Shown: positions 52,229 to 62,648 of the stretch, one piece after another
Numbering within the stretch: position 1 is the first letter of the stretch
Layout: every line of letters starts with the position of its first letter
NCBI RefSeq assembly: GCF_019913785.1
Contig: NZ_JAIOHK010000060.1
Coordinates: 65,826-129,825, forward strand
Direction of reading: 5' to 3'
Source: Altibacter sp.
GTDB taxonomy: Bacteria; Bacteroidota; Bacteroidia; Flavobacteriales; Flavobacteriaceae
Length of the DNA stretch: 64,000 nt
Program-made: the position numbers and the translations under genes
Notes under the pieces: model-generated
Databases searched by the model: none
What the model was told of the DNA's origin: nothing
Seen by the model: the letters and a program-made list of their open reading frames with translations, nothing else

Positions 52229-53536
52229 ATGTTTTTAGCAGCGAGCACATTAGGCGTTATCATTGCAACCGTTGTTGCCTTCTTGGTTTTAACCTTGCTT
52301 TTAGTCGCGTTATTGCTTTTTACAAAGCAGAAGTTATCTCCTTCAGGTCCGGTAAAGATTACCATCAACGACGAAAAGGTGATCGAAGTGGAATCCGGCA
52401 ACACCCTTTTATCTACTTTGGGAAATCAAAAAATATTCTTGCCCTCCGCTTGTGGAGGTGGTGGAACCTGTATTCAGTGTGAGTGTCACGTACTTTCAGG
52501 GGGTGGCGAAGCGCTACCTACAGAAACCCCGCACTTTACCAGAAAAGAGTTAAAAGAAGGTGCGCGCCTGTCCTGTCAGGTAAAAGTAAAACAGGATATG
52601 AATATTCGTATTCCGGAAGAAGTCTTCGGAATTAAAAAATGGGAAGCAACTGTCGTGAGAAATTATAATGTGGCTTCTTTTATTAAGGAATTTGTTGTTG
52701 AAATTCCGGAGGATATGAATTACAAAGCAGGGGGTTATATACAAATAGAAATTCCTCCCTGTGAAGTGAAATTCGCCGATATGGACATTACCGCGCATCC
52801 GGAAGAACATGAAACTCCGGATAAGTTTCAAGCCGAGTGGGATAAATTTGGTCTTTGGCCCTTGGTCATGAAAAACACCGAAACGGTAGAACGCGCCTAC
52901 TCAATGGCTTCGTATCCTGCCGAAGGAAGAGAGATCATGCTGAACGTTCGTGTGGCCACACCACCATGGGATCGTACAAGAAACCAATGGATGCAGGTAA
53001 ATCCGGGAATTGCGTCCTCGTATATATTTAATGCGAAAAAAGGTGATAAGGTAACGATTTCAGGGCCTTATGGTGAATTCTTTATCAATCCATCCGAATC
53101 GGAAATGCTCTACGTGGGAGGAGGAGCCGGAATGGCACCGATGCGTTCGCACCTGTATCATTTGTTTAGAACCTTAAAAACCGGTCGTAAAGTGACGTAT
53201 TGGTATGGCGGACGTTCTAAAAGAGAGCTTTTTTATATCGATCATTTCAGAAATTTGGAGAAGGATTTTCCTAATTTCAAGTTTTATATGGCACTTTCTG
53301 AACCACTTCCAGAAGATAATTGGAAGGTGAAAAAAGACATTGAGGACGCAGGAGATGGGTTTGTAGGATTTATTCACCAGGTGGTAATAGACAACTATTT
53401 GAACCATCACGAATCTCCTGAAGATATCGAACTGTATTTCTGTGGTCCTCCATTGATGAACCAGGCCGTTCAGAAGATGGGAGAGGATTTTGGTATTCCG
53501 GATGAAAACATCCGATTCGACGATTTCGGAGGATAA
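52229..53536 (+). CDS. nqrF: Na+-translocating NADH:quinone reductase subunit F
   Basis: NADH-oxidising flavoprotein anchored by an N-terminal span. The 2Fe-2S ferredoxin domain has [10 protein letters not shown] (Cys75, Cys81, Cys84) and Cys116 (LSCQV). The FAD-binding reductase has [12 protein letters not shown] and the NADH domain has [36 protein letters not shown] and [14 protein letters not shown]. Length 435 is normal. An upstream in-frame ATG (52199) lies in the nqrE coding region and is rejected. Followed by a strong terminator. Confidence 0.97.
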
Positions 53537-53561
53537 ACCACCAGTTTTATTAAAAAGATTA

Positions 53562-53585
53562 GCCGTTTCAGCCCTCTGAAACGGC
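53562..53585 (+). terminator. rho-independent terminator of the nqr operon
   Basis: GCCGTTTCAG-CCCT-CTGAAACGGC, a perfect 10-base stem with a 4-base loop, followed by TTTTTTT. Confidence 0.92.
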
Positions 53586-53655
53586 TTTTTTTATGGAATA
53601 TGTTAAAAAAATACGCATTTCATCGTATAAATATTGCTTTTATCGGATTAAATTA

Positions 53656-53715: not shown

Positions 53716-56700
53716 ATGAAAAATTTTATTCTCTCCATTTTTCTGTTATCTTTTTTTATTGGCTTCGGTCAGCAACGTACCAGCACCCAAGTCGGTTTTC
53801 AAAAAATTGCAGATACCACCAAGTATGCAACAGCAGTTAATGCGATTGTCGCAGGTTACGATCAAGCCAAATTGAACGCGCTTTACAATACGTTTAGTGA
53901 ACGACAAACTTCCGAAAAGGAGGAAGCCGTTGCCTATGCCCTTATCAATAATATTCCCATCGAAAAATACAACGAGGATGGTTCCTTTGATGAGTTACAA
54001 CGAATTACGTCTTATGGCGCTCCTATCTACTATAAACTGCACAATGCCAATGCTTCCATATCTACTCGAGCCAACTATCTGAACACGGGTGGTGGTTTAG
54101 GCCTAACAGTAGATGGTGATAATTTAACTGCGCATGTTTGGGATGGTGGACCTACGCGGCCTACCCACCAAGAATTCGATGGTGCTGGCGGAAGTAACCG
54201 GGTGACTATCAATGATGGGGTAACTACCATAAATGGAAATAGTTTTCATGCACAACACGTTACAGGAACCATAGTTGCTTCAGGTTTTGTTGCAGCAGCA
54301 AAAGGGATGGCATGGCAGGCTAATGCCTTAACACATGACTGGAATAACGATTTAACCGAAGCCACCTCCGAAGCCTCTTCAGGAATGTTACTCTCCAACC
54401 ACTCATATGGATTTGATGCAACTGCCATTCCGGATGCTTGGTTCGGTCAATATGGATCGGATGCTCGCGACTGGGATCTATTAATGAATAGCGCGCCTTA
54501 TTATTTGATGGTGAATTCGGCAGGAAATGACGGTAATGATAATACCGCAAACGGAAATCCATTGGCTGGAAACGCTGCATTTGATAAATTAAACGGAACA
54601 GCAACCGCTAAGAATAATTTTGTAATTGCCAATGGTCAAGATGCCAGTATTGATGGAAGCGGTAATTTAATATCTGTCAATCGAAACTCAGGAAGTAGTG
54701 AAGGACCAACAGATGATTATCGAATCAAGCCCGACATAATGGGAAATGGTACCAGTTTGTATTCTTCGTTAGAGACCAGTAATAGCGCCTATGGAAACCT
54801 TACCGGAACCTCTATGTCGGCGCCCAATGTTACAGGGACTTTACTGCTGCTGCAAGAACATTATTTTGATATCAATGCAGCCTTTATGAAAGCGGCGACG
54901 CTTAAAGGCTTGGCACTACACACAGCAGATGATACCGCAGCCCTAGGGCCCGATGCCGAAACAGGTTGGGGCTTGTTAAATGCAAAATTTGCAGCCGAAA
55001 CAATAACAGCCAATCCTGCGTCTGCAGTGATTTCCGAATTAACTATATCACAAGGTCAAACCTATCAAGTGACAATCCAATCTGATGGGGTGAATCCCTT
55101 AAAGGCTTCTATTTCATGGAATGATCCTGCGGGAGCCATCAATAGTGGAACCAATAGTAGTACGCCTGCTTTAGTAAACGACCTGGATCTTCGATTGAAT
55201 AACGGATCAACATTTACACCATGGAGGCTCACTGGAGTGAACTCGAACGGTACCGGGGATAATACGGTGGATCCTTATGAGCGAATTGATATTAGCGGAG
55301 CTTCGGGACAATATACACTAACAGTAACTCACAAAGGGACACTTTCAGGTGGAGCTCAAGATTTCTCTCTGGTTGTAACCGGCGGGAATATTGCTGCGAG
55401 TACGCCTCAAATTTCGTATGGAACAACGACTTCTTCATTAACCGAACAAACCGATTGTAGTTATACAGATGTCACTATTCCTCTAAACATAGCCATGGCG
55501 CCTTCACAGGATGCCGATGTGAATTTTGCAGTAGCCGGTGGTACTGCCACTGATGGTGTCGACTTTGATCTTATCACAACTTCAGTAACCTTTTTGCAAG
55601 GTCAGACCACTTCACAAAATATGACGGTACGTATCTATCACGATGCCTTTGTGGAAAGTACTGAAACGGCTATCATCGAATTTACCGTAAATCCCAATGG
55701 AGGCGATGCAACGGCAAATACGAATGCAAATTCTTTGACCATTACGATTAATGATAACGATGTAGCACCAACAGTCACCCAAAATTTGAACATATTATTT
55801 GAAGATTTTGAAGTGCCTACAGGATGGACTAGCATAGATGCAGATGGAGATACCTTTGATTGGGTTATTTCCAACCTTGATGGTATACATGGTTATGTAG
55901 GAAATGCGGCTAGGAGTTTTTCGTGGAACGGTTCAAATTACACACCGAATAATTACTTGATGAGCCCACAGTTTACAATTCCAGCTGGAGCAACAGCGGC
56001 TTCGGTGAGTTACGAAATTGGATCAGCAACCGATCCAAATTTTTTTAGTGAACATTATTCGGTATACTTTGTAACAGACATTTCGAATGAAGCAGCCATA
56101 TTGTCGAGTACCTTATTAGTCTTGGAAAATGACCGGACGATTCCAGCCGTTGGTTCTGAAACCAGAAGTCATAATTTAAATGCAGTAATTGGTACACCGG
56201 GTTATTTTGTGGTGAGACACCATAACGTAACGGGTGAATGGTATTTGGGTCTTGATACGGTAAGTGTTGACGCAACAGTCAATACAGCAGTGCAAACAGC
56301 TGTGAATAACGGAACGAGCGATCAAAAGTTGCTAATGGGTGCAGGGACAATCTATACTGCCGACGCTAGTAGTGGTGATGTCATGTTGGATATTACGAAT
56401 AACAATTCGGAAAACTATGGCTGTGTAGATGTTGCTGTTACGAGAGCAGGAACAGGAGCACAACCCTACGATGGAAGTACTTCTCCAAATTTGGTGATGG
56501 ATAAAACCTTTGCTATTACACCTGCAAATACATCTGGTGCCGGCAATACAAATGTTGCCTTTTATTTTACCGAAGCCGAAATTGCCGGTTGGGAGACCGC
56601 AGTGGGTGGCACGGTAGGAGTCACAAGAAATTCTTTGGTCATAGCCCGAGATGATAATGGTTCGCTGGTTGAAACAGCAACAGCGACCCTAGGCGCATTT

Positions 56701-58476
56701 GGTACAAATGTAACTTTATCGGGTACTTTTTCAGGACTGGATGGAACCTATCTGTTTGGACCAATAGGTGCATTTTTAACATGCCCGGGCGTTACCAAAA
56801 CTTGGAATGGAACCAACTGGAGTCCGGCCGGAGCACCGGACACTACGAATCCCGTTATAATTTCAGGAAATTATAATACTTCAGCAGCTGCAGATGGTAA
56901 TCTCGATGCCTGTACAATACAAGTCGATAATGGTGCCACACTTACCGTGGGAGCCGATAGTTATTTAAATGTGAACAGCAATATTGTGGTAAATGGCAAT
57001 ATGGTTGTGGAACATACGGGTAGTGTTGTCCAAATAGATACGGATGCAACTGTAACAAACAATGGTGGTAATAGTATCGACGTTGAGCTCACTACGCCAA
57101 TATTACAGACACGTGATTTTATGGTCATGGGTAGTCCTATGGATGGAGAGACTCGCAACGGTGTTTTCAACAGTGCCTTTTTGGTGCTTAATCATACCCC
57201 TGCGAATTTCATTCCCCATCCCGGTGTTCCTCTTGGAGGAACCAATTTTGCCGATGAAAACGGTGATTTTTGGAATGCCTATTCCGGAAATATCAATAAT
57301 GGTGAAGGCTTTATAGTAAGACCGCAGTCTGGTTATACCGATCCTGCCAATACCACCTACAATATGACCTATACTCAAGGGACACTGAACAATGGAGATA
57401 TTAGTAGACCCATTGTTTTCAATGGTCTGGCAAGCAATGGTGATGGTACTCCTAACGTCATCGCTAACCCATATCCGTCGGCTATTTCGGCCTCTCAGTT
57501 TATTGCCGATAATTCTTTGGTAACTCGAATTTATTTCTGGGAACATCTAACACCACCCAGTAGTAGTATTCCCGGTGCAGGAAGTATTAACTTCAGTATG
57601 GACGATATATCCATGTATATTGATGGTGGCGCACTACCTGCTGCCAACGACCCAGGTACGAGCACCGAACCAAACGGAGTGATCTCTACCGGACAAGGCT
57701 TCGGATTCTTTGCCCAAGCGGCCGGAACTATTACGTTTACCAATTCGATGCGACTTACCACAGGAAATACCACCTTGCGAAAAGGCGTTGAAGTTGACAA
57801 GGTATTGCTTAAGGTGCGAAACGAACAATACAATGTCGGAAGTCATGCCTTGGTTGCCTTTAACCCACAGGCGACTCCTGGTTTGGATGAAAATTATGAC
57901 GCAGACAGATTGGCCACCACAATATCGTTATACTCTCACTTAGAAGATGGAACAGAACAATTAGGTATACAGAGTCGTGAAGCATTCGATTCTCAGATAA
58001 AGGTACCAATCGGCTTTGCAAGTCAGGTAGATGCCGAGGTGTCTTATATTATTTCTATAGCCAATTTGGAAGGAACAAATATCGATCAAGCTACGATATT
58101 CTTAATTGACAATTGGGAAAACAGTATCCATAATTTAAGTGCAAGTGATTATGAGTTTAAAAGTGCAAAGGGCACTTTTAACCAACGGTTTACCTTGTTG
58201 TTTGAACCTGAAGTGATTTTAGGAACTCAGGATAATAGCCTAGAGCATATCGTGATTTTCCCCAATCCAACCTCCCATAACATTCAAATAGTGTCTCCTT
58301 ATATTACTATTGAAAAGGTGGAAGTTTACGATGTACAAGGAAGAAAAATACAAGAAGTTGTATTTAATCCGCAAAGCAGTTATCAGGTAGATCTTTCAAA
58401 ATTTGATGCTGCCATGTACTTTGTGACCTTATATACCGAAAAGGGAGTGGAAACAAGAAGTATTGTAAAGGAATAA
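53716..58476 (+). CDS. secreted S8 subtilisin-like peptidase with T9SS type A sorting domain
   Basis: Secreted serine protease of 1586 residues. Signal peptide ~1-18. The catalytic triad is Asp143 (AHVWDGG), His178 (SFHAQHVTGT) and Ser366 (GTSMSAPNVTG); residues 470-565 resemble the pro-protein convertase P-domain-like beta-sandwich (YQVTIQSDGVNPLKASISWNDPAG). Next comes a Calx-beta-like domain (about 580-690) and a MAM-like or jelly-roll domain (EDFEVPTGWTSIDADGDTFDW). A large C-terminal module (about 1030-1586) with MVMGSPMDGETRNG and a type A T9SS tail (IFPNPTSHNIQIV ... GVETRSIVKE) is shared nearly intact with the following M36 peptidase. Probably degrades extracellular protein. Confidence 0.93.
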   Translation: MKNFILSIFLLSFFIGFGQQRTSTQVGFQKIADTTKYATAVNAIVAGYDQAKLNALYNTFSERQTSEKEEAVAYALINNIPIEKYNEDGSFDELQRITSYGAPIYYKLHNANASISTRANYLNTGGGLGLTVDGDNLTAHVWDGGPTRPTHQEFDGAGGSNRVTINDGVTTINGNSFHAQHVTGTIVASGFVAAAKGMAWQANALTHDWNNDLTEATSEASSGMLLSNHSYGFDATAIPDAWFGQYGSDARDWDLLMNSAPYYLMVNSAGNDGNDNTANGNPLAGNAAFDKLNGTATAKNNFVIANGQDASIDGSGNLISVNRNSGSSEGPTDDYRIKPDIMGNGTSLYSSLETSNSAYGNLTGTSMSAPNVTGTLLLLQEHYFDINAAFMKAATLKGLALHTADDTAALGPDAETGWGLLNAKFAAETITANPASAVISELTISQGQTYQVTIQSDGVNPLKASISWNDPAGAINSGTNSSTPALVNDLDLRLNNGSTFTPWRLTGVNSNGTGDNTVDPYERIDISGASGQYTLTVTHKGTLSGGAQDFSLVVTGGNIAASTPQISYGTTTSSLTEQTDCSYTDVTIPLNIAMAPSQDADVNFAVAGGTATDGVDFDLITTSVTFLQGQTTSQNMTVRIYHDAFVESTETAIIEFTVNPNGGDATANTNANSLTITINDNDVAPTVTQNLNILFEDFEVPTGWTSIDADGDTFDWVISNLDGIHGYVGNAARSFSWNGSNYTPNNYLMSPQFTIPAGATAASVSYEIGSATDPNFFSEHYSVYFVTDISNEAAILSSTLLVLENDRTIPAVGSETRSHNLNAVIGTPGYFVVRHHNVTGEWYLGLDTVSVDATVNTAVQTAVNNGTSDQKLLMGAGTIYTADASSGDVMLDITNNNSENYGCVDVAVTRAGTGAQPYDGSTSPNLVMDKTFAITPANTSGAGNTNVAFYFTEAEIAGWETAVGGTVGVTRNSLVIARDDNGSLVETATATLGAFGTNVTLSGTFSGLDGTYLFGPIGAFLTCPGVTKTWNGTNWSPAGAPDTTNPVIISGNYNTSAAADGNLDACTIQVDNGATLTVGADSYLNVNSNIVVNGNMVVEHTGSVVQIDTDATVTNNGGNSIDVELTTPILQTRDFMVMGSPMDGETRNGVFNSAFLVLNHTPANFIPHPGVPLGGTNFADENGDFWNAYSGNINNGEGFIVRPQSGYTDPANTTYNMTYTQGTLNNGDISRPIVFNGLASNGDGTPNVIANPYPSAISASQFIADNSLVTRIYFWEHLTPPSSSIPGAGSINFSMDDISMYIDGGALPAANDPGTSTEPNGVISTGQGFGFFAQAAGTITFTNSMRLTTGNTTLRKGVEVDKVLLKVRNEQYNVGSHALVAFNPQATPGLDENYDADRLATTISLYSHLEDGTEQLGIQSREAFDSQIKVPIGFASQVDAEVSYIISIANLEGTNIDQATIFLIDNWENSIHNLSASDYEFKSAKGTFNQRFTLLFEPEVILGTQDNSLEHIVIFPNPTSHNIQIVSPYITIEKVEVYDVQGRKIQEVVFNPQSSYQVDLSKFDAAMYFVTLYTEKGVETRSIVKE
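57097..58209 (+). repeat. C-terminal module copy 1 (in S8 peptidase gene)
   Basis: About 1.1 kb that aligns without gaps to 61269-62381 with a constant offset of 4172 bases. It includes blocks that match exactly, the longest found by eye being 57598-57653 (56 bases). Similarity is highest from 57523 to 57782, where the two proteins share about 80 identical consecutive residues. Confidence 0.9.
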
Positions 58477-58560
58477 CGCGATACTTTAACATTTAGAGAA
58501 GAACCTATTGTAGTGATTCTATTTAAGTGGTTTTACTTTCGATGTAAATAGATAATTGCT

Positions 58561-58568
58561 TAAATTTG
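58561..58568 (+). promoter_or_regulatory. predicted promoter of the M36 peptidase gene
   Basis: TAAATTTG matches TAnnTTTG; TTTC at 58537-58540 is one base off the -33 TTTG with a 20-base gap. The transcript would start near 58575, so the gene probably has its own promoter despite following the S8 gene by 149 bases. Confidence 0.55.
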
Positions 58569-58625
58569 AATAATATCAAATAGAATAGCCATACCTACGA
58601 ACTATTCTTTTATAATCCATCAATT

Positions 58626-61600
58626 ATGAAGTCTACTCTCTTGTTTCTTAAACCATTTCTAGCTAATCTTTCGCTTTCGGCCCTAGTGCTTTTGTTCTCC
58701 CTATTCATATTTCAAACCGCAGAAGCACAGACGACTAAGGCTTCTCAAAAAGAGAACAAATCTGTGCTTAAGGATTTGATACAAACCGAGAATTCCAATT
58801 ATGTGATAACCGATGAACATATAAGTTCCACCAGTGGCATTCGGCATGTATATGTAAGACAGGCCATTGGAGGAATAGAAGTAGTAGGAACCGAATCCAG
58901 TGTACATCTTGACAATGAAGGAACTGTTATTGTTGAACACAATAATTTATTACCAAATATTTCAGCTACAATAGTAAATGCATCTGCGTTAATAACCGCT
59001 GAAGAGGCTATTGTTTCGGTGGCTGGACAGATGGGGTATGTTATTTCAGAATTAAACCAAATCGAGCAGAAAAACAATAGAGAATTTGTTTTCAATAAGG
59101 CAGGAATTTCTACTGAAGACATCCCGGTAAAGCAATTGTATTATTATCGACCAACAGCAGGCACTAGTATGATTTATGAGTTGTCGATTCAGGAAACAAC
59201 AACTTCCGACTGGTGGAATTTTCGGGTAGATGCTTCCACGGGATCCATTATCGACAAAGACAATTGGACGGTCTATTGTGAACTGCCTTCAAAAATTAAA
59301 AGTGATGATGCCAAAACGGTTTCAGAAAACCATAACACGTTTAATTTGTTCAAACCACAGACTACATTGAGTTTCGCAGGTAGTTATAATGTGTTTCCAA
59401 TGCCTATTGAATCACCAAATCACGGTTCTCGAAGTATAGTGAGTAATCCGGACGATGCAAATGCTTCGCCTTATGGGTGGCACGATACCAATGGAGCAAG
59501 TGGCCCCGAATATACCACCACCAGAGGGAATAATGTTTTGGCGCAGGAAGATGTCAATGGAAATAATGGAACGGGTACCATGGCAAATGGTGGAGCGGGA
59601 TTGAATTTTAATTTTCCACTGGATCTGAGTCAGCAACCTATCGTTTATCAAAATGCAGCCCTTACCAATTTATTTTTCTGGAACAATATTATGCACGATG
59701 TGTATTATCAATACGGTTTTGATGAAGCTAGTGGCAATTTTCAGCAAAACAATTATGGAAATGGAGGTCTTGGAAATGATTATGTACTAGCCGATGCGCA
59801 GGATGGAAGCGGTATCAATAACGCAAATTTTGGGACACCTACTGATGGTAACAGACCCCGTATGCAGATGTTTTTATGGGATCCGGCACCGCCTATGATT
59901 CAACTTACCATAAACGCTCCGGGATCTTTGGCAGGAACCTACAATGTCGTTCAAGCTGGTTTTGGTCCCGATGTTCCTACAAGTCCAATCACAACCAATT
60001 TTGCACTTTTCAATGACAATACAGCGCCAGATAATTATGATGGCTGTCAAGCTGCTGTGAATGCTGGCGCGTTAAACGGAAAAATTGTTTTAATTAGAAG
60101 AGGAAATTGCAATTTCACCGATAAAGTAGTCCGGGCCGAAAACGCGGGAGCAGTTGCCGTTATTGTTGTCAACAATGCACCGGGTGCCCCAATTATCATG
60201 GGAGGAACCGATCCCGGAATTGGAATCCCCTCGGTTATGATATCTCAGACCGATGGAGAGGCTATGATCACCGCGTTACTTAATACCACCACCGTCAATG
60301 GAACCTTGGTCGGGACAGCTGCGGGAACCGTCAATATTGATGGCGACTTGGATAATGGAATTATAGCTCACGAATACGGACATGGAATCTCCAATAGATT
60401 GACAGGAGGTCCCTCCAATACAAGCTGTTTGGGTAATGCCGAACAGATGGGAGAGGGTTGGTCCGACTTCTTTGGATTAATGCTTACCATCGAAGCCGGT
60501 GATACGCGAACCGATGCTAGAGGCATTGGAACCTATGCCATTGGTGAATCGATTGCCGGAAACGGAATTCGTCCGGCTCCCTATAGCACCGACTTTGCCA
60601 CGAATCCCTTTACCTATGCCGATACAAATGATACCGGGACTATTTCTCAGCCCCACGGAATAGGATTTGTTTGGTGTACCATGCTTTGGGATATGACGTG
60701 GGACCTTATAGATAAATACGGCTATGACCCCGATGTCTATTACGGAACAGGAGGAAATAATATTGCGATGAAGCTTGTTGTTGAAGGATTAAAGCTGAAT
60801 CCGTGCAACCCCGGTTTTGTTACGGGTAGGAATGCTATTTTAGCCGCCGATCTAGCCCTGTACGGAGGTGCAAACCAATGTTTGATATGGAATGCATTTG
60901 CGAAAAGAGGGCTGGGAGCGAGTGCTTCACAAGGGTCGAGTAGTAGCCGTACCGACCAAACCGAAGCCTTCGACTTGCCATCTACAACATACAACGGAAG
61001 TTGGAGCAATGGAACACCAGCGCTTGGGAAAATTGCGATTTTTAATCAAAATTACAATACCACTGCTGGAAATATTGAAGCCTGTTCTTGTGAAATTAAC
61101 AGCGGCAGTACCGTAACCGTTGCAGCCGATGATTATATGCTCATTGAAGGTGATATTACCGTCGACGGAGCACTAATCGTAGAACACACCGGAAGTGTGG
61201 TACAAATTGATAAAGATGCAGTGGTTACCAAAGCAGGTGGAGCCACCATCAATGTGGAAGTAGACACTCCGATCTTACAAACCCGTGATTTTATGGTCAT
61301 GGGTAGCCCTATGGATGCCGAAACACGTACAGGTGTATTCAACAGTGCCTTTTTAGTGCTCAAACACACCCCTGCGAATTTCATGCCCCATCCCAGCGTT
61401 CCGCTAGGAGGAACCAATTTTGCCGATGAAAACGGTGATTTTTGGAGTTCCTATTCCGGAAGTATCGATGTAGGAGAAGGATATATTGTACGTCCCCAAT
61501 CGGGTTATACCGATCCGGCCAACCATTCTTATCCGTTAACATACAGTTTAGGGACACTAAACAACGGGGATGTTAGCAGATCGATCATTTTCAATGGTCT

Positions 61601-62648
61601 GGGACCTAACCCGGATGGCACGCCTAATGTGATTGCAAATCCGTATCCTTCGGCTATTTCGGCCTCTCAGTTTATTGCCGACAATTCTTTGGTAACTCAA
61701 ATTTATTTCTGGGAACATTTAACGCCACCCAGTAGTAGTATCCCCGGTGCAGGAAGTATTAACTTCAGCATGGACGATATATCCATGTATATTGATGGTG
61801 GCGCACTACCTGCTGCCAACGACCCTGGAACGAGCACCGAACCAAACGGAGTGATCTCTACCGGACAAGGTTTTGGATTCTTTGCCCAAGCGGCCGGTAC
61901 CATAACGTTTACCAATTCGATGCGACTTACCACTGGAAATACCACCTTGCGAAAAAGTGTTGACGTTGACAAGGTATTGCTAAAGGTGCGAAATGAACAA
62001 TACAACATTGGAAGTCATGCCTTGGTTGCGTTTAATCCAAATGCTACAGCTGACTTAGATGAAAATTATGACGCAGACAGATTAGCCACCACGATATCGT
62101 TATACTCTCACTTAGAAGATGGAACAGAACAATTAGGTATTCAAAGTCGTGAAGCATTCGATTCTCAGATAAAGGTGCCCATGGGCTTTGCAAGTCAGGT
62201 GGATGCCGATGCAGCCTTTATAGTATCTATCGAAAACATCGAAGGGCTTAATTTAGGAACTGCTACCGTCTATTTTATAGATAATCAGGAAAACACAATT
62301 CACAATCTTAGCAATGGACCCTACGAGTTTAGAAGCAGTAAGGGCACCTTTAATCAGCGTTTTACCTTGTTGTTTGAACCTGAGGTGATATTGGGCGATG
62401 AGGAGGATTCGTTAGAGCGAATTGTGTTATTCCCGAACCCTACCAACGACGTTCTGAATATTCATGCACCTCAATCACAGATAATGAGTATAGTAGTATA
62501 CGATGTACGAGGACGGCAGATAAAGGCCGTGGATTTAGTTGGTCAAAGTAGTTACCAATTAGACCTTTCCCGATTGGAAACTGCCATGTATTTTGTCACC
62601 GTTAATACCGACAATGGATCGATCACCAAACGTATTGTGAAAGAGTAA
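58626..62648 (+). CDS. secreted M36 fungalysin-family metallopeptidase with PA domain and T9SS sorting domain
   Basis: 1340-residue zinc protease. Signal peptide about 1-35 (SLFIFQTAEA). An FTP-like propeptide (about 50-220, GIRHVYVRQAIGGIEVVGTESSVH) precedes the M36 catalytic domain with HEYGH (His582, Glu583, His586) in IIAHEYGHGISNRLTGG and MGEGWSDFFGL with the third-ligand Glu. A PA (protease-associated) domain (about 455-565, GKIVLIRRGNCNFTDKVVRAENAGA) is inserted in the catalytic region. From about 795 on, the protein shares its module with the S8 peptidase, ending in a type A T9SS tail (LFPNPTNDVLNIH ... SITKRIVKE). Probably surface-attached or released. Confidence 0.94.
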   Translation: MKSTLLFLKPFLANLSLSALVLLFSLFIFQTAEAQTTKASQKENKSVLKDLIQTENSNYVITDEHISSTSGIRHVYVRQAIGGIEVVGTESSVHLDNEGTVIVEHNNLLPNISATIVNASALITAEEAIVSVAGQMGYVISELNQIEQKNNREFVFNKAGISTEDIPVKQLYYYRPTAGTSMIYELSIQETTTSDWWNFRVDASTGSIIDKDNWTVYCELPSKIKSDDAKTVSENHNTFNLFKPQTTLSFAGSYNVFPMPIESPNHGSRSIVSNPDDANASPYGWHDTNGASGPEYTTTRGNNVLAQEDVNGNNGTGTMANGGAGLNFNFPLDLSQQPIVYQNAALTNLFFWNNIMHDVYYQYGFDEASGNFQQNNYGNGGLGNDYVLADAQDGSGINNANFGTPTDGNRPRMQMFLWDPAPPMIQLTINAPGSLAGTYNVVQAGFGPDVPTSPITTNFALFNDNTAPDNYDGCQAAVNAGALNGKIVLIRRGNCNFTDKVVRAENAGAVAVIVVNNAPGAPIIMGGTDPGIGIPSVMISQTDGEAMITALLNTTTVNGTLVGTAAGTVNIDGDLDNGIIAHEYGHGISNRLTGGPSNTSCLGNAEQMGEGWSDFFGLMLTIEAGDTRTDARGIGTYAIGESIAGNGIRPAPYSTDFATNPFTYADTNDTGTISQPHGIGFVWCTMLWDMTWDLIDKYGYDPDVYYGTGGNNIAMKLVVEGLKLNPCNPGFVTGRNAILAADLALYGGANQCLIWNAFAKRGLGASASQGSSSSRTDQTEAFDLPSTTYNGSWSNGTPALGKIAIFNQNYNTTAGNIEACSCEINSGSTVTVAADDYMLIEGDITVDGALIVEHTGSVVQIDKDAVVTKAGGATINVEVDTPILQTRDFMVMGSPMDAETRTGVFNSAFLVLKHTPANFMPHPSVPLGGTNFADENGDFWSSYSGSIDVGEGYIVRPQSGYTDPANHSYPLTYSLGTLNNGDVSRSIIFNGLGPNPDGTPNVIANPYPSAISASQFIADNSLVTQIYFWEHLTPPSSSIPGAGSINFSMDDISMYIDGGALPAANDPGTSTEPNGVISTGQGFGFFAQAAGTITFTNSMRLTTGNTTLRKSVDVDKVLLKVRNEQYNIGSHALVAFNPNATADLDENYDADRLATTISLYSHLEDGTEQLGIQSREAFDSQIKVPMGFASQVDADAAFIVSIENIEGLNLGTATVYFIDNQENTIHNLSNGPYEFRSSKGTFNQRFTLLFEPEVILGDEEDSLERIVLFPNPTNDVLNIHAPQSQIMSIVVYDVRGRQIKAVDLVGQSSYQLDLSRLETAMYFVTVNTDNGSITKRIVKE
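61269..62381 (+). repeat. C-terminal module copy 2 (in M36 peptidase gene)
   Basis: Counterpart of 57097-58209 at a constant offset of 4172 bases. The identical offset is kept to both stop codons, so no net insertion or deletion has occurred across the module. Differences inside the most conserved part are mainly third-position changes. Confidence 0.9.

Follow-up and report, generated by a model that had tools for sequence, protein, structure and literature searches.

The proteases and the adhesin encoded by rgpA, kgp and hagA of Porphyromonas gingivalis belong to the type IX secretion system (T9SS) and carry identical C-terminal repeats; PMC5266723 speaks of combinatorial modularity and names gene conversion via homologous recombination. 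A second system relevant here is the pair RemA and RemZ of Flavobacterium johnsoniae (PDB 8gl6 and 8gl8), of which RemA is a gliding adhesin according to PMC10994853. We analyzed a 64,000-nucleotide stretch of an Altibacter sp. genome (hereafter the window), in which two tandem genes, for an S8 subtilase and an M36 fungalysin-type metallopeptidase, share a C-terminal module. Divergence at silent sites indicates that ectopic gene conversion very probably made the low-divergence tracts found in this module. Ectopic conversion of bacterial paralogues appears as a local drop of silent divergence in one genome between diverged flanks, with trees changing along the gene. Compared to the usual concerted evolution of paralogues, it is not whole genes that are concerned here, but one segment of otherwise unrelated enzymes.

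The S8 gene (53716..58476, plus strand; identified from the list of open reading frames (ORFs), Pfam and NCBIfam) encodes a T9SS substrate of 1586 residues with the domain order Peptidase_S8 (E 7e-18), Calx-beta, Cleaved_Adhesin, common module and type A sorting tail. The M36 gene (58626..62648, plus strand) encodes a T9SS substrate of 1340 residues, with a Peptidase_M36 match (E 2e-146), a protease-associated (PA) insert and, at the C-terminal end, the same module followed by a type A sorting tail. The Pfam family Por_Secre_tail terminates both proteins, the sorting domain TIGR04183 was found in both (4e-12 and 6e-14), and GldL and SprA are present in the window genome, so the two proteins were classed as T9SS type A substrates. 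The ORFs and Pfam agree with the tandem arrangement that an earlier note on this DNA had read from the sequence. The catalytic parts, which the note had called unrelated, do belong to different Pfam peptidase families, and the N-terminal parts agree exactly over 13 consecutive bases at most.

The nearest precedent is the common adhesin regions of the gingipains. Gingipains and HagA (PMC5266723) resemble the present case in that T9SS surface proteases share segments located C-terminal to the catalytic part, while both gingipain heads are C25 cysteine proteases as opposed to the unrelated heads here, and the gingipain common parts are made of cleaved-adhesin and DUF2436 domains as opposed to a different, unnamed module. 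Pfam gave no C25 match in the S8 or M36 protein, and the single cleaved-adhesin match of the S8 protein sits outside the module. The breadth of the module across genera also sets it apart from the gingipain case.

The module spans 568 residues in the S8 gene (56770..58473, plus strand), where it consists of a predicted solenoid-like part, a core, a beta-sandwich part and the sorting tail, and 60981..62645 (plus strand) in the M36 gene. The two copies align over 558 residues at 74% identity with 5 gaps, or over 1481 nucleotides at 79% with 22 gap positions. The earlier note had described about 500 near-identical residues aligned without net gaps; a fixed offset does hold in the middle of the module, but the protein alignment needs the 5 gaps, and near-identity is limited to the middle. 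The 56-base exact match claimed for 57598-57653 at an offset of 4172 was reproduced exactly, and the claimed run of about 80 identical consecutive residues is in fact the longest peptide common to both proteins, with 85 residues (57529-57783). The fixed-offset identity in 90-base bins was 0.27-0.66 before 57130, 0.84-0.97 in 57130-58029 (except for 0.69-0.74 in 57310-57489) and 0.56-0.72 after 58030, a peak in the middle and a fall at the T9SS tail as the note had it. The type A sorting tails of S8 (58255..58473, plus strand) and M36 (62427..62645, plus strand) are diverged and lie outside the tracts.

Silent differences were counted over the codons for which both copies have an identical amino acid. 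Such codons differed in 32/53 cases (60%) at the N end of the module (56770-57111) and in 26/46 cases (57%) at its C end (58210-58473). Much lower values were observed in tract 1 (57112..57294 in S8, with the partner 61284..61466 in M36), where 10/49 codons differed (20%), and in tract 2 (57478..58035, with the partner 61650..62207), which holds the 56-base and the 85-residue identities and where 28/174 codons differed (16%); all four segments are on the plus strand, and both tracts have the offset of 4172. The tracts of low divergence number two or more; in the stretch that separates them (57295-57477), 27/46 silent codons differed, and past tract 2, in 58036-58209, 17/37 differed. The best single tract, 57478-58024, had a log-likelihood ratio (LLR) of 24.5, a value reached in none of 1000 permutations, among which the maximum was 11.5.

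Between genomes the picture in tract 2 is different. The window S8 gene differed from six S8 orthologues (catalogue genomes G001, G002, G096, G108, G310 and G215) at 0.51-0.67 of the silent codons. The same kind of sites gave 0.57-0.62 for the comparison with two M36 copies, a looser one because the M36 protein of G003 is not a strict orthologue, judging by the absence of the PA insert and about 340 extra residues. The silent distance is thus non-uniform along the module and low within the genome only, as the earlier note had expected of gene conversion. With 40-codon windows, the lowest proportion of silent differences (pS) was 0.15 for the S8/M36 pair compared to 0.44, the lowest among ten other tabulated pairs, which was observed for the sister species G001 and G002. 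Judging by silent divergence, the latest exchange in tract 2 is therefore younger than the split of these two species.

A third copy of the module, 70% identical over the 371-residue core, is located on another contig of the window genome (2.98 Mb in 85 contigs; G000 in our catalogue). Near 56992-57112, the proportion of amino acid-changing differences (pN) between this copy and the window M36 was 0.02-0.04 with silent sites saturated, a hint of an older exchange between the two. The third protein (C78:16835-20041, or L061:7836-11042; 1068 residues) has no Pfam head, its N-terminal part recurs in 20 catalogued genes, and its gene is preceded by three ORFs of about 300 residues.

Trees of 18 modules were built by segment, each segment being short (61-186 columns). 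The N-flank tree placed seven S8 modules and one of DUF1028 type on one side (support 100/100) and grouped the window M36 with the third copy (94/93). In the tract 2 tree, the window S8 and M36 copies came together (100/97), two copies grouped within each of G096 (96/94), G215 (99/97) and G260 (100/100), and the PL8-lyase copy of G310 joined the S8 copy of this genome and that of G108 (85/83). In the tail tree, six 'third' genes clustered by gene (99/99). The gene tree switches at the tract borders, with grouping by gene type in the N flank and by genome for the window pair in tract 2. In G096 and G215, the tree grouping had no silent-site counterpart, with no pair at LLR ≥ 9; therefore, either the events in these genomes are older or the protein is under constraint.

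The module core was searched for in 397 sampled genomes of the family and was found in 34 of them (E ≤ 1e-60); with up to five candidates scored per genome, the copy numbers are lower bounds. The resulting catalogue has 115 modules in 35 genomes; the counts exclude modules shorter than 250 residues, which were truncated by the end of a contig or stretch, and a repeated reading of G353. Among 6555 pairs scanned at silent sites, LLR ≥ 12 was observed for 21/173 within-genome pairs versus 4/6382 between-genome pairs (the strongest of these four came from the near relatives G108 and G310), and LLR ≥ 20 for 14 within-genome pairs versus none between genomes. Ten of the 31 genomes having at least two modules account for these 21 pairs. 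Permutations reached the observed value in 0/200 trials for 20 of these pairs and in 1/200 for the remaining one. For example, tracts in G211, G222 and G353 had 0/264, 0/213 and 2/209 silent differences, and in G291, where the M36 and S8 genes are 1.5 Mb apart, 8/366 silent codons differed. The cases from G081 (C24/C46) and G122 are suspect, with genes cut at contig ends. The same type of exchange recurs in other genera, in tandem as well as dispersed genes and with unrelated heads.

High-identity pieces (blastn, at least 100 bp at ≥88%) were found in 14 within-genome pairs, and none of the 14 extends beyond the module; the window S8/M36 pair does not pass this filter and was detected by the silent-site scan. 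In the numbering of the window module, 6/14 pieces (from five genomes) start at residues 92-103, near the end of the predicted solenoid-like part, and 9/14 stop before the sorting tail. Divergence between families climbs immediately to the left of the border at residues 92-103, so the border may be merely the place where similarity suffices for recombination.

The earlier note had left the choice between gene conversion and a recent duplication. If the entire module had recently been duplicated onto a second gene, as a domain fusion, this would fit some pairs of other genomes whose similarity extends through almost all of the core and tail (in G260, the DUF1028 and M36 genes have one 1407-nt piece at 95% that runs to the gene end). 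In the window, this explanation is refuted by the saturated flanks on either side of the tracts: the module ends show 57-60% silent differences, which is as diverged as between species, and the N flank of S8 falls in an S8-specific clade; we consider duplication here very improbable, and it is the gene conversion half of the note's proposal that stands. No more credible is a chimera in which a short-read assembler mixed repeat copies. Contigs do break inside modules in the drafts G015, G081 and G122; the window copies, on the other hand, share a contig and have retained 28 private silent differences in tract 2, and in G222 and G291 comparable tracts are each contained in one long contig (3.04 Mb and 2.26 Mb, respectively). 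Least probable of all, to the point of being negligible, is selection at the DNA or RNA level (an overlapping gene or RNA structure) that would suppress silent change in the tract. A 147-residue ORF on the minus strand (57103-57546) does overlap the module, but the orthologues differ at 51-67% of silent codons at the same positions, which refutes silent constraint, and show no sign of it for this ORF.

Ectopic gene conversion thus explains the tracts best, while several observations weigh against it or against its generality. No tract at LLR ≥ 12 was seen in 21 of the 31 genomes with at least two modules, and the within-genome pairs lack independence, 9 of the 21 being from G222. The tail is not always spared, since 5/14 high-identity pieces extend into it. 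Grouping by genome in the tract 2 tree was observed in four of the eight genomes with at least two rows (G000, G096, G215 and G260); G310 comes near to it (85/83), and G002, G003 and G108 do not show it. Distances and segment trees did not settle the direction of transfer: in tract 2 the window amino acid distance was 17% to the G003 M36 compared to 25-37% to the S8 orthologues, and the tree near the pair is poorly resolved.

A separate question is why the tracts persist. That the conversion is a neutral by-product of nearby repeats, with no shared function, has nearly an even chance in our judgment: LLR ≥ 12 was observed in 10/37 tandem pairs (within 25 kb) versus 11/136 other pairs, an excess that the neutral reading explains, and conversion begins where the similarity between families begins. 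On the other hand, dispersed copies such as those of G291 convert as well. The presence of the module on many unrelated enzymes, yet with only 3 of 83 sorting tails in the window genome, points to the module, but not to the conversion, as having a specific role. A shared surface-attachment or gliding partner is a tentative reason for the persistence of the tracts, with somewhat less than an even chance.

A profile of 60 modules matched residues 572-1112 of RemZ (E 5.6e-87) and residues 896-1434 of RemA (E 7.7e-73), both from F. johnsoniae; the window module sequence alone matched them with E of 2.5e-47 and 4e-37, respectively. By these matches, the module is homologous to the C-terminal region of RemA and RemZ. 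The likeness covers nearly the whole module and the type A sorting tail; the window proteins have S8 and M36 peptidase heads according to Pfam, as opposed to a RemA-type lectin head. TIGR04183 and Por_Secre_tail were each found in 60/60 modules. Five other Pfam families had 1-2 members each (E from 2.5e-4 to 9e-3), and the central 240 or so residues of the 60 modules had no recurring Pfam or NCBIfam match. NCBIfam gave tail-type models, and the window module had its three matches all inside the tail. The AlphaFold models were confident, with a predicted local distance difference test (pLDDT) of 86 and a predicted template modelling score (pTM) of 0.74 for the module, and 85.5 and 0.85 for the core. 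Matches of the 568-residue model to PDB chains run mainly via the sorting tail. The 240-residue core alone (encoded by 57085-57804 in the window) had no Foldseek match at E ≤ 0.001 (the best was 0.19) and a best VIA Z of 2.4, which does not prove a new fold. In the published RemA and RemZ complexes (8gl6 and 8gl8), only the sorting tail is well resolved (PMC10994853), so these structures offer no fold for the module core.

Besides the window S8 and M36 proteins, 28 representative carriers were scanned with Pfam. Peptidase heads included the M4, M10, M14 and M43 families; other heads or N-terminal parts included PL8 lyase, GDSL lipase, ThuA, DUF1028, Sortilin-Vps10, FG-GAP, beta-helix, MAM and galactose-binding-like repeats, and several of these carriers had no Pfam head. 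In the window genome, 83 sorting-tail matches were above the family cut-off, with the module core at three places only; therefore, the module is not a part of the general secretion signal. Two S8 module genes, L132:6636-11374 (Aequorivita UBA3180) and L216:6170-9865 (G222), are apparently split or shortened in the catalytic part.

The left border of the variable slot that holds the peptidase genes is the last gene of the Na+-NQR operon (52229..53536, plus strand), which was matched across genomes by homology and which we take to be nqrF from the family of the operon. A pattern match identified a terminator-like hairpin 3' of this gene (53561..53586, plus strand); thus the S8 gene probably has its own transcription unit. 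In 21 genomes, a module gene is located up to 4.1 kb 3' of nqrF and in the same orientation, and G015, with its slot gene cut by the contig end, brings the count to 22/35; in the other 13, nqrF was outside the DNA compared. The distance is below 400 bases in 16 of the 21 genomes. The slot holds S8 in G001, G002, G096, G108 and G215, M36 in G003, G015 and G260, S8 and M36 in the window genome, S8 and a PL8 lyase in G310, and six tandem module genes in G296, among them a Sortilin-Vps10 and GEVED protein with the same module (L200:7435-12129). In G003, where the slot has the M36 gene alone, an S8-like stretch (L050, C1:2822604-2824289; 42% identity, three in-frame stops) is possibly a decayed subtilase. 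On the far side of the slot, genes of 120 and 342 residues are common to all five loci compared, and a 290-residue gene is common only with G108 and G310.

The RemA/RemZ-type modules of the S8 and M36 genes are paralogues of old divergence, and homologous recombination between the tandem copies very probably overwrote their middle in two or more tracts, leaving the catalytic parts and the outer module ends untouched. The sorting tail would take each protein through the translocon, and the module would probably set its later fate at the surface, by attachment or through a common partner. The converted segment may have the same job in all carriers of one genome, most likely docking to the surface or to RemA-type machinery; if the copies must fit the same partner, conversions carrying this segment would be harmless or useful. 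The solenoid-like part beside the enzyme and the sorting tail would follow their own gene, with the enzyme-proximal part staying matched to its head. If the same recombination ended in crossing-over, heads would be deleted or fused, which might add to the turnover of the nqr slot.

A search of the literature on gene conversion or concerted evolution together with T9SS, flavobacterial adhesins, gingipains or Altibacter peptidases, with few subscription papers covered, returned the gingipain paper and nothing on the module. Paralogue trees and orthologue calls made from such C-terminal regions will mislead, and draft assemblies may break at them. In the draft of G015, for example, contigs stop inside module genes at the C18 end (L070) and the C23 start (L266), which fits the disruption of short-read assembly that near-identical modules would cause. 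A segment common to RemA, RemZ and a few unrelated enzymes, and uniform within genomes, makes a concrete candidate signal. A further and rather doubtful proposal is that the module serves as a hitherto undescribed C-terminal chassis, interchangeable among a small class of T9SS enzymes and with a core fold absent from the PDB, in which conversion keeps the chassis uniform within a genome and crossing-over or new fusions turn over the heads. If this is true, the module would serve free-living marine Bacteroidota as a system for diversifying their surface enzymes, with the turnover of heads being plainest behind the Na+-NQR operon.

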